Shown here: positions 38,731 to 42,193 of the stretch, in pieces
Numbering within the stretch: position 1 is the first letter of the stretch
How the letters are laid out: each line of letters starts with the position of its first letter
NCBI GenBank assembly: GCA_026004775.1
Contig: BPJU01000009.1
Span: 62,001-126,000 of the forward strand
Direction: 5' to 3'
DNA length: 64,000 bases
From: Pirellulaceae bacterium
GTDB lineage: Bacteria > Planctomycetota > Planctomycetia > Pirellulales > Pirellulaceae
Notes under the pieces: model-generated
Databases searched by the model: none
Told to the model about the DNA's origin: nothing
The model's input: only the letters and a program-made list of their open reading frames with translations
Translations under genes and position numbers: made by a program

Positions 38731-39207
38731 GGCCATAGTTATGGGCTATAGCGAACGGCCCAAGCGTTCCGCGACAGCCTTTGTTTCCACAGTCTTTGCT
38801 CGCGCCGGTGGCCCCAAGATTTCTTTTCACGATTGGTGCCTAGCTTCTTACTCGTACTGAAGCGTACCGGGACTATGAACCCAACTCATTGCTGAACCTG
38901 TGTCAATCAGGTGCCCATCCCACGGAGTTGGGCAACACGAACCTTCGATCGTTGCTAGAAGGCGGCACACTTGCACAAGCATAACGCCACGCATCACCGA
39001 CGACTTTGGTCGTGTTTACGAAGTAAGCTCGGGCTAACGATTGTGAGCTGCGGTGGTAGCTGGTTGCAAGAGCTGTTGGGAATCGACATATCCCAAATAG
39101 CCGGCCTCAGCGGCTCGCCCGGACGAAGTAGAGGGCGCGCATGAATATTGCCGATGTGAAGTGAGTTTTGGTAGTTGAGGAGGATGGTGCCAACAACGTA
39201 GGCCTCG
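38731..39207. other. Intergenic stretch without recognisable gene
   Basis: About 480 bases. It begins with a partial inverted repeat around GCCATA and TATGGGC. The rest has stops in all frames at short intervals, and base composition is lower in G+C than the flanking genes. I see no RNA gene or mobile-element end. Confidence 0.5.
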
Positions 39208-39365
39208 CAAAAGACGTTTCGGGAAAAGGTTTCACGGCAAAGGTTCCCGGGGGAGAGCTTTCGGAAGGGAGCTTTCGGGAAAGAGTTCCGCGGCGGGAGC
39301 TTTCCGGAGGAAGGTCTCGGAAGAGAGGTCTCGGGAGGTGAGGTCTCGGCGGAGAATTTTCGCGA
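39208..39365. repeat. Degenerate 12-16-bp G-rich repeats
   Basis: Diverged units of the type GGGAGCTTTCGGAA and GAGGTCTCGGGA follow each other without clear gaps and grade into the regular tandem repeat to the right. The strand is strongly purine-biased. The minus strand reads as proline/serine-rich peptide in two frames, which is a by-product of the repeat rather than evidence of coding. Confidence 0.6.
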
Positions 39366-39421
39366 GAGGTCTGGGCAGGGAGGTCTGGGCAGGGAGGTCT
39401 GGGCAGGGAGGTCTGGGGAGG
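39366..39421. repeat. Four tandem copies of a 14-bp unit
   Basis: GAGGTCTGGGCAGG is repeated at 39366, 39380, 39394 and 39408, the last copy with one change (C to G). The array is the regular end of the degenerate purine-rich block upstream. A 14-bp period is not a multiple of three, so coding is unlikely. Confidence 0.9.
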
Positions 39422-39529
39422 GAGGCGTTACCGGGCCGTAGTTGCGGGGGCTGGGTTGTGGCAAGGAACGGGAGACGGCTTGTGGAGTTCGTGCTTCGCG
39501 ACGCGGTGACCAAGTCACCACGAAACAAT

Positions 39530-39675
39530 GGTGCCAGGCACTACGGTCCGCGGGCCAAATATGGTGCCAGGCAGTACGGTTTCGCGCCGAAAAACGAGGT
39601 GCCAGGCACTACACCAACCAAAAAAGTGGTGCCAGGCACTACCGTTACCGCGAAAAGCGCGGTGCCAGGCACTAC
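39530..39675. repeat. Five spaced copies of GGTGCCAGGCACTAC
   Basis: Copies start at 39530, 39563, 39598, 39628 and 39661, at intervals of 33, 35, 30 and 33 bases. Four are identical; the second has one change (GGCAGTAC). The core GTGCCAGGCAC is an 11-bp odd palindrome. The intervening 15-20 bases differ. An inverted repeat GGTGAC/GTCACC with a three-base loop lies just upstream (39505-39519). The array ends 250 bases from the stop codon of the RAYT-like gene. Confidence 0.92.
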
Positions 39676-39925
39676 GGTTTTGCCGGCGGGGCCACTAACC
39701 GATACCACCCTAATTGCGGATTATCCTATTCGACAAGATAGGTACATCCCGGGCGCGCGTTCGCCCCGACAGCCACAATACCGCTCAGAAAAGCCTCAAC
39801 GAGAAGCCCCAAAGACCAATTGCCGGCTCTTACAAGCCACCACCGACAAGACTCTCACCCCACAACCCCTTCCGGGCTGCTAAAAAAAACTTCCGAAAAA
39901 GTGAACTTTCATCCACCACGGGACA

Positions 39926-41563
39926 CTAACTCGAGTCCAACCGATTCTCGTCCGAGCCTGCCCGCTCCTCGCGCTGCCTACGCAACACTGCCCGCCGCCG
40001 CCTCACCCAATCGTTAAACCCTAACAACTCCTTGGCGGTCCTCCGCGGATTGCGCACCCACGCCTCGCCCGTCCGTATCACATCCGCTACCCGCAACCGC
40101 ACCCGCCCGAGCACCCCGCGCAGCCTCTCCAACTCCGCTTCGCCATAGCCCATCAGAAGCGCAACCACCCCCGCCAACTCGTCCGGATTTTCCCTTGCCG
40201 CCAATAACCGCTCGACCCATTGTTGAACCTCTTCCTGCGTGCTCAAACCGGCCAGTTGACAGGCTTGCCCCCACACCTGAAGCCAATGGGCCAAGTTCCG
40301 GCGCACTCTGTCTCGCAGATTCTCATCCAGCGGCTTTACCCGGAGCAATTCGTCCGTGATTTTCCAGTCGCGACCCGGGCGGCGTATCCGCTCCTCTTCC
40401 ACATCGGCGCTGGGCTTCATCAGCCGCCAAATCCGCCACGTGGCACCCAACCACCGCGAAAGCGCTACCCATTCGACCGGGTCGACCGGCCCCAATCCCG
40501 ATATCCCGTGCCACTGGTCTACGTCGGCTGCCGGCCAGCCCTCCCTCCGGCAATCCACCGGACCCAATGGCAGCAATTCGCGTATTTCTTCCACATAGCC
40601 ATCAATTTGTATTGGCTCAACAGCGCCGGCACTCGCCGCCCCATTTGCCTGCCGGCCTTGCCGGGACCTATTTTGCCTTGATGCATTTCGCTTGGACGGA
40701 CTTTGCCGTGCCGGGTTTTGCTGTGATGGATTCTGCGCACCATCCGGCACGTGTAGCCCGCCCGCTACCACTATCCCGGATTCCCGCCTCACACCCGCCA
40801 CCTGGATCCTGCCACCGTCCGGAGTCCGCAGTCCCGTGATCACCAATTCATTGAGGTCCGTTACCACCTGGAGCAAGCTGTCGTCGTCTTCCAGGCCTTT
40901 CTCACGCATCAAACCCACGTATCGGTCCCACAGCGACCCGCTGTGACACACCTCCGATATCGGGACCACACCGGTCGAAACCAGTTCTATTTCTTGAATC
41001 AATGCCACCAGGATCGAATGCGACTCGGCATTGACCGGCACCGAGCCATATCGGTCGGACCAAAAGTGGCCGCTTACCTGGTCCTCCTGGTTGAAGAGGA
41101 TCGCCACGCGCTGCTTGACCACTTGTTCGAAGAAGGGCAGCGACGCCAATTGGCCTCGCCAATACTCAATAAACTCCACGTCCTGGCAAAGCACTTCCGG
41201 TGGCGGGGCATTACGCCTCCAGCGGATGCGGTGCTTTCTGCACCTCTTGGCAACCGGCCTGGGAAAAGCACGCTTTACGCGAAGCAGTATCTCCCCAGCC
41301 GACCAACTCCTCGCCCACTCCGGATGCACGTGCAGATAGCTTACCCAGGCGTTGGGCAGCACAGCCGTCGAATAGAGCTCCAACGAAAAGGACGGAAGGT
41401 AGTGGTTACAAGTGTCGAGAATCGTTTTGCGCCTGTGGGCAAAATCCTTTCCTCGCAACGGGTTCTTGCCCAACAGGGCTTCCTGGCGAGAACACTCCGA
41501 GATGCACGCTACCCGCACAGGTTGGCCGTCGGGCAAGATCTCATATCGAGCCGCACGTCCCAT
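39926..41563 (-). CDS. RAYT/Y1-transposase-like protein lacking catalytic residues
   Basis: 545 residues from an ATG behind a perfect GGAGGT seven bases upstream. The N-terminal third has the layout of planctomycete Y1 (REP-associated tyrosine) transposases: GRAARYEILPDGQPVRVAC, a Cys/Arg-rich ECSRQEALLGKNPL, HRRKTILDTC, then AVLPNAWVSYLHVHPEWARSWSAGEI and VSGHFWSDRYGSVPV. Where relatives have Asn-His-x-His in a VMSNHFH-type strand this one has NAWV. The catalytic-Tyr helix reads VALIQEIELVSTG, so both catalytic elements seem absent. The C-terminal half (from about 300) has no recognised domain and is interrupted by a Q/N/S/R-rich pentapeptide repeat. It may be a domesticated DNA-binding derivative. 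Confidence 0.75.
   Translation of the reverse strand: MGRAARYEILPDGQPVRVACISECSRQEALLGKNPLRGKDFAHRRKTILDTCNHYLPSFSLELYSTAVLPNAWVSYLHVHPEWARSWSAGEILLRVKRAFPRPVAKRCRKHRIRWRRNAPPPEVLCQDVEFIEYWRGQLASLPFFEQVVKQRVAILFNQEDQVSGHFWSDRYGSVPVNAESHSILVALIQEIELVSTGVVPISEVCHSGSLWDRYVGLMREKGLEDDDSLLQVVTDLNELVITGLRTPDGGRIQVAGVRRESGIVVAGGLHVPDGAQNPSQQNPARQSPSKRNASRQNRSRQGRQANGAASAGAVEPIQIDGYVEEIRELLPLGPVDCRREGWPAADVDQWHGISGLGPVDPVEWVALSRWLGATWRIWRLMKPSADVEEERIRRPGRDWKITDELLRVKPLDENLRDRVRRNLAHWLQVWGQACQLAGLSTQEEVQQWVERLLAARENPDELAGVVALLMGYGEAELERLRGVLGRVRLRVADVIRTGEAWVRNPRRTAKELLGFNDWVRRRRAVLRRQREERAGSDENRLDSS
40654..40743 (-). repeat. 15-bp tandem repeat inside the RAYT-like gene
   Basis: Six in-frame 15-bp units encode pentapeptides of the form QNPSQ, QNPAR, QSPSK, RNASR, QNRSR, QGRQA. 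The result is a basic, polar, probably disordered linker between the transposase-like part and the C-terminal part. Length is a multiple of three, so copy-number change would not break the frame. Confidence 0.85.
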
Positions 41564-42193
41564 CGATGCCACCTCCGTTCGGCGCGCACGTCGCGGCCCA
41601 CGGCGCTTGCCGAAACCCAGCCTACCCCTCCTGCCTTACTTAAATTTATCCCCACCCCTGGGAATCAAGAACGGGGTGGCCGATTTTTGGCTGCCTAATT
41701 CGCGGCACAATTAGAGACCGTCCTGCACGAGCGCGTTGTTGGGGCGGCACTTGGCGATACGGGCTGCGGAGGGCAAACTGGGGCACTTCGTGTGCTCCCC
41801 AGGCTCGGCCGGTCACTCAAAACAAGCGCCCGCTCGAGGAGCCAACGCATCAGCACCACCACTGGTTCCCACACCACCTGGGCAGGCGCCATACCGACAG
41901 AGCCTGCGCGGAGTTGGTTTTCTCATTGGGACAAAGCACCGATGGAAGCGCCCGCGCGAACAGCCACCGTGTAGGGGAGGTCGACGAAAATGGGCACACG
42001 ATCCGCTTCATCTGGCTCCGACAGACCATGTGCAGGGCATCGAAGAGACCGGATGGAGGTACGTTTGCCCTCGAGAGACGCCTGGCCGTGACGGTGCCGA
42101 AGACACCCATACGCCCGAAGGTACTTGCTCAGAAATGGCACGCGAAAAACGCCAGCGTGGTGGATTCAAATGGAGGGATTGTGGCCCGAACGG
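41564..42193. other. Non-coding or decayed stretch
   Basis: About 630 bases between two minus-strand genes. Several overlapping short frames exist on both strands, none with a ribosome site plus a motif. The first 17 bases hold the ribosome site of the RAYT-like gene. The stretch from 41960 to 42190 reads protein-like in pieces (for example a VDENGHTIRFIWLR segment on the plus strand), possibly a gene remnant that I cannot identify. Confidence 0.45.

Follow-up and report, generated by a model that had tools for sequence, protein, structure and literature searches.

A RAYT-derived gene family without HUH and tyrosine residues that behaves like a mobile element in a planctomycete genome

Introduction

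A transposase whose active site has been lost usually decays or is turned into a host gene, and a domesticated gene is expected to be single-copy, syntenic, and found in relatives. A gene on the minus strand of a 64,000-nucleotide stretch of a Pirellulaceae genome (assembly GCA_026004775.1, contig BPJU01000009.1, positions 62,001 to 126,000; referred to as the window) raises the question of what follows when the entire catalytic center of a RAYT/Y1-like transposase appears to be gone and the reading frame nevertheless stays open. An earlier note on this DNA had proposed a domesticated, non-transposing derivative. The answer reached here is a different one: the dead RAYT family, as the gene and its relatives without catalytic residues are termed, behaves like a mobile element, and in it loss came before spread, with three diverged dead subfamilies, each amplified later, and a protein still under selection.

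N-Terminal Homology and Loss of the Active Site

The reading frame comprises an ATG start, 545 codons, and a stop (Table 1), and both this clean frame and the GGAGGT seven bases ahead of the ATG had been described correctly in the earlier note. The nearest relatives outside the own genome, obtained from a search of 60 related genomes, are RAYT-like proteins of about 350 amino acids, with an E-value of 2.4e-18 by sequence to an active relative. In a profile-profile comparison (hhalign) of the dead family with nine active relatives, residues 1-219 were aligned over 212 columns with a probability of 99.6% and an E-value of 1.2e-24. These comparisons confirm the earlier assignment as a RAYT/Y1-like gene and indicate, far beyond chance, that the N-terminal domain is homologous to planctomycete RAYT/Y1 transposases. 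A search with the Pfam Y1_Tnp profile, which the earlier note had named as a check, gave sub-threshold matches only, for the dead gene and for the active relatives alike. A PDB sequence search with the 545-aa protein returned no match, and single-sequence AlphaFold2 models (mean pLDDT 40.2 for the N-terminal and 45.0 for the C-terminal part) were too poor for fold comparison.

The active site was assessed in an alignment of 27 active relatives and 12 representative dead sequences. Residues H19, N71, H72, H74, Y189, L192, and N193 are invariant in 27/27 active relatives, and the five catalytic ones, H19, H72, H74, Y189, and N193, are missing from the gene at 39926-41563; in E. coli TnpA-REP, a metal-ligand role has been ascribed to the equivalent of N193, the NP asparagine (PMC6006769). 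The N-H-x-H motif is present in all 27 active relatives and in none of the 12 representative dead sequences, in which H19 is replaced by A, L, or V, H72 by A, H74 by V or L, Y189 by I or L, and N193 by E, H, or Q. At the HUH position, subfamily A, to which the gene belongs, reads NAWV, and its two sister subfamilies, B and C, read DALL and EAIL; B and C are also without any HxH and without Tyr at the old position. The replacements of NHxH by NAWV and of the Tyr helix by IQEIELV, both pointed out in the earlier note, are thus reproduced by alignment, the latter at residues 189-195 opposite YVDLNPV, and the loss of the whole active site is stronger than had been stated, as H19 and N193 are gone too and the loss of HUH and Tyr is common to all three subfamilies. 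Judged by its sequence, the dead family is an inactive enzyme. The motif N..D...G.FW..R is retained, with N158, G165, F167, W168, and R171 invariant in the dead and in nearly all active sequences. A relocated HUH motif was also considered in the form of HVH at residues 78-80 of subfamily A, a few residues after NAWV, and was rejected, since the corresponding residues are E/Q and R in B and C and R..R in the active relatives.

Table 1. Features of the studied unit, with positions counted from the first nucleotide of the window
Feature	Position	Strand	Basis or remark
Coding sequence, 545 aa, RAYT/Y1-derived protein, catalytically dead by sequence, subfamily A copy	39926..41563	-	
Y1/RAYT-homologous domain, residues 1-219	40907..41563	-	hhalign against 9 active relatives
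Shine-Dalgarno GGAGGT	41571..41576	-	Sequence; 7 nt before ATG
Ala at residue 19, position of invariant strand-1 His	41507..41509	-	Alignment
NAWV, residues 71-74, position of NHxH (HUH) motif	41342..41353	-	Aligned with active relatives
Retained motif FNQEDQVSGHFWSDR, residues 157-171	41051..41095	-	Alignment with active relatives
IQEIELV, residues 189-195, position of YVDLNPV (catalytic Tyr, metal-binding Asn)	40979..40999	-	Alignment
Variable low-complexity linker, residues 240-332	40568..40846	-	Highest pN/pS of the protein (0.35), in-frame length variants
C-terminal domain rich in invariant Trp, probably helical, residues 333-531	39971..40567	-	41-43% identity between subfamilies, pN/pS 0.21
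Left end and 5' untranslated region, beginning AAAAATCGGCCACC	41564..41688	-	98-100% identical in most type-1 copies, then abrupt drop
Conserved 3' untranslated region, stop to REP array	39673..39925	-	Common to aligned A copies, in which the first REP follows the stop at 249-266 nt
REP unit 1, GTAGTGCCTGGCACC type (GTGCCTGGCACC core)	39661..39672	-	
REP unit 2	39628..39639	-	
REP unit 3	39598..39609	-	
REP unit 4, one mismatch	39563..39574	-	
REP unit 5	39530..39541	-	

C-Terminal Domain and Purifying Selection

The Trp-rich C-terminal domain is novel and without a known family match: in agreement with the earlier note, which had found no recognized domain in this part, searches of Pfam, NCBIfam, PHROGs, and PADLOC gave none, and the full-length protein also has no family match in these collections. 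The C-terminal domains of B and C are 41-43% identical to that of A. The domain was detected in 1/397 genomes of the order, namely the own genome, and a pattern scan of 84,980 species genomes found no relatives of the dead family. It is probably helical, the predicted secondary structure being all helical in the poor AlphaFold2 model (mean pLDDT 45.0). A correspondence to the C-terminus of the active relatives, which lies at a similar rough position, was examined and dismissed as not significant (hhalign E 0.054, probability 1%).

Substitution patterns indicate purifying selection on the protein in A, B, and C alike; the earlier note had named such selection as a point to be checked, and it now holds. 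For intact, full-length copies, with broken copies excluded, the mean pairwise pN/pS is 0.24 in A, 0.14 in B, and 0.31 in C, and for changes private to one copy it is 0.25-0.32. The linker is relaxed (0.35 in A, 0.32 in B, and 0.58 in C), and the C-terminal domain (0.21, 0.07, and 0.27, respectively) is the best conserved part of the protein in A and B. In subfamily C, a hot spot for indels, about 16 nt long (AATAAAAGGAAGACTTCCCGTG), lies at codons about 347-352, between the linker and the C-terminal domain, with at least five different length changes in 7/15 copies (L028, L031, L035, L038, L039, L040, and L042); five of these seven are frameshifted, with the gene otherwise conserved and the downstream domain mostly staying open.

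Copy Number and Subfamilies

The own genome (G000), a draft assembly of 6.14 Mb in 30 contigs in which repeat gaps may hide further copies, contains about 47 dispersed loci of the dead family, 31 of them intact. Subfamily A accounts for about 25 dispersed copies, of which 16 are intact, with 91-99% protein identity, and about nine are broken. Subfamily B, about 35% identical to A, has about 7 copies (six intact and one broken), and subfamily C, about 33% identical to A, has about 15 (nine intact and six broken). Truncated or frameshifted copies thus amount to 9/25 in A, 1/7 in B, and 6/15 in C, and stand beside intact ones; such a coexistence of intact copies under constraint with copies in decay is the pattern of a mobile element.

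The dead sequences group together as a single clade (UFBoot 100), set apart by a long branch. Because this clade is monophyletic and the C-terminal domain is common to A, B, and C, the loss of the active site is older than the amplification; most simply, as read from the sequences, it predates the A/B/C split, and the amplification of each subfamily is younger. Dead orthologues were not found in related genomes, the 396 other genomes of the order being without the C-terminal domain.

The proposal of a domesticated, non-transposing gene fails because of this copy number, the restriction to one genome, and the pattern of decay. About 25 dispersed copies, or about 47 with the sisters, do not agree with domestication, and "non-transposing" is not borne out by the B units: seven copies are 96-98% identical, starting about 194 nt upstream of the start codon, and the sequence to the left of this sharp boundary is mostly unrelated, apart from a common left flank in L026 and L027. 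The right side of each B copy is a variable palindrome array.

Palindrome Arrays of the Units

A subfamily-specific tandem palindrome array follows the gene on its 3' side in 42/42 copies examined, starting 249-392 nt past the stop, and no REPs were found upstream of the gene in these 42 copies. The palindromes are GTAGTGCCTGGCACC in A, AGAGGCTGTCACC in B, and GGGGTCTGTCCCC in C; multi-unit arrays are in direct orientation, with a spacing mostly of about 31-33 nt. The REP palindrome of the gene at 39926-41563 is GTAGTGCCTGGCAC, and the left-end DNA of its unit is AAAAATCGGCC. The A-type REP carries GTAG, and the B and C types are without a GTAG foot. The A-type 12-mer has 87 exact sites in the genome, nearly all beside A copies, compared with 1 for the reversed control, and the 39 exact C-type REPs are all beside C copies. 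This pairing of gene subfamily and repeat type matches that of RAYTs and REPs; a dispersal of REPs away from the gene, by which RAYTs are also recognized, is not seen for the A and C types. An Rfam search on the element gave no match.

Active Relatives and Known Systems

The closest counterparts by sequence are the active planctomycete RAYT-like units of about 350 aa, which are multicopy and REP-associated as well. In two other genomes of the family, multicopy IS-like active RAYT-like genes were observed (L190-L197 in G019 and L198-L202 in G036), with 84-97% DNA identity between loci. Inverted copies of the REP enclose many active relatives, as AGGGACAGAGCAT does in L198-L202, above shuffle expectation. 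These active units differ from the dead ones in that NHxH and YVDLN are intact, the new C-terminal domain is absent, and many have the inverted REP bracket, which was not seen in dead units. Since active relatives are multicopy and REP-associated in other genomes, IS-like mobility is probably ancestral in this planctomycete lineage, whereas RAYTs are usually described as non-mobile.

No active relative of the same subfamily was found in the own genome, where a canonical active query gave only A, B, and C at significant scores. Apart from these copies, only two Y1 genes were found there, both of other groups (L061 and L062); L062 (G000:C2:517890) consists of several adjacent RAYT-like frames of another group with NHVH intact. 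An active relative helping in trans was accordingly considered and rejected, as none of the same subfamily exists there and L061 and L062 belong to other groups.

Class 2 RAYT, or TnpA-REP, proteins (PMC6006769) share with the dead family a homologous N-terminal domain, the N..D...G.FW..R motif, and a linked palindromic REP array, which is GTAG-tagged in A. The dead family differs in being without HUH, Tyr, and the NP asparagine, in its extra C-terminal domain, and in its copy number, with dozens of closely similar copies in a single genome; class 2 RAYT copies per genome, by contrast, have been reported as few and dissimilar (PMC6006769) and RAYTs have been reported without IS-like multicopy mobility (PMC2817692). 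E. coli TnpA-REP, regarded as a domesticated transposase, is likewise linked to REPs, on which it has been proposed to act in trans; it is an active enzyme, with a nuclease activity directed specifically at REPs (PMC6006769), whereas the dead family is inactive by sequence and multicopy. IS200/IS605 TnpA elements belong to the Y1 fold family and are also compact single-gene mobile units, but they rely on a complete HUH/Tyr site and on subterminal hairpins at each end; the dead units have no such active site, and no paired hairpins were found at their ends.

Explanations for the Spread of the Dead Family

The reading preferred here, to which about an even chance is given, is that of a REP-linked mobile unit whose transposase has turned into a non-catalytic DNA-binding factor selected for its own spread, with the cutting performed by something else. 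As the sequences show, the common ancestor of A, B, and C had lost all HUH and Tyr catalytic residues and carried or gained the new Trp-rich C-terminal domain, after which the subfamilies were each amplified (to about 25, 7, and 15 copies) with their own palindrome array 3' of the gene. The protein may bind the hairpins of its own unit, either REPs or ends, via what is retained of the Y1 fold, and its C-terminal domain may recruit or position a partner for cutting and joining, such as the replication or recombination machinery or a transposase acting in trans. Units with a working protein would then spread better, and selection for self-spread would maintain the constraint on the protein. The retained N..D...G.FW..R motif and the cognate REP array are consistent with the predicted DNA-binding role. 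Counted against this reading are the mosaicism of the A copies, the absence of an inverted REP pair, and the IS630-like element that may be the carrier of A copies; a comparison set with one genome of the genus revealed neither a transposition event nor an excision product nor an empty site, and no helper enzyme was found.

The flanks of the A copies bear most directly on an alternative in which the protein is uninvolved and the units are passive cargo of other elements, IS630-like in the case of A, multiplied by homologous recombination and gene conversion. Many A copies lie within IS630-like remnants, assigned by reading of the translated remnant and not by a family search, with a broken transposase frame on the left, a right tail ending GACGAAGCACTA, and the corresponding end TAGTGCTTCGTC (left flanks in L046, L048, L049, L051, L052, L057, and L060; right tails in L045, L047, L049-L053, L056-L058, and L060). 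Over the first 125 nt upstream, most A copies are 98-100% identical, with outer flanks that reach only 73-87%. Flank types and 5' regions are reshuffled, and as two different 5' regions (T1 and T2) are both joined to closely related A genes, A copies have recombined; they are mosaics, and their similarity is in part accounted for by recombination or gene conversion. An old IS630 association can also account for some of the spread of A, but not for that of B or C, beside which the scaffold was not seen, the left boundary of the B units being sharp and without IS630-like ends. Moreover, the remnants were found only together with A copies, the genome has neither a gene-less scaffold nor an intact element of that type, and no empty sites of the scaffold or of the second flank type were found. 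Inert cargo is not expected to show purifying selection, and this alternative is considered unlikely. Purifying selection, together with the conserved REP association and the complete loss of catalytic residues, would also suit a repeat family useful to the host, namely a REP-binding regulator or nucleoid protein that has been domesticated, of which the host keeps many copies and which recombination has dispersed; occurrence in 1/397 genomes of the order and in none of the 84,980 scanned, the broken copies in every subfamily, and a copy number and recency like those of mobile elements make it quite improbable, and it is ranked below passive carriage. Lower still in probability is a new chemistry, in which HUH and Tyr are replaced by a new nuclease or transposase site, formed by the C-terminal domain or by residues rearranged within the Y1 domain. 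The strong conservation of the C-terminal domain in A and B (pN/pS 0.21 and 0.07) and its invariant acidic residues D337, E364, D387, E414, and E444 speak for such a site, but the domain is without similarity to any catalytic family and is predicted as all helical, albeit from a poor model, and B and C offer neither HxH nor Tyr at the old position.

A broader proposition, that transposons are spread here via a protein of the HUH/Tyr lineage without HUH or Tyr, be it through new C-terminal catalysis or through a non-catalytic factor directing host enzymes, is put forward tentatively, with less than even confidence. If the preferred reading is confirmed, the family would offer a natural case of a transposase whose DNA binding and targeting have been uncoupled from cutting, making testable the questions of how RAYTs and REPs spread and whether the chemistry can come from host enzymes.

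Sequences Adjoining the Units

Beyond the REP array of the studied copy, window positions 38994-39521 contain repetitive GACCTCCCTGCCCA-like units, partly common to copies L044, L046, and L048. Elsewhere in the genome (G000:C1:342655-343762), an array of 11 A-type REPs adjoins only a decayed gene remnant (C1:344083-344507). An IS110-like transposase gene is located directly past the C-type REP array in L110 and L115, and an IS4-like gene (L114) and a group II intron reverse-transcriptase-like fragment (L116) lie downstream of C-type REP arrays; REP arrays may serve as landing sites. The left flanks of L013, L023, and L025, which are one A and two B copies, have the same sequence, ending CCGTGAACGGTTAC, possibly an IS66-like end.
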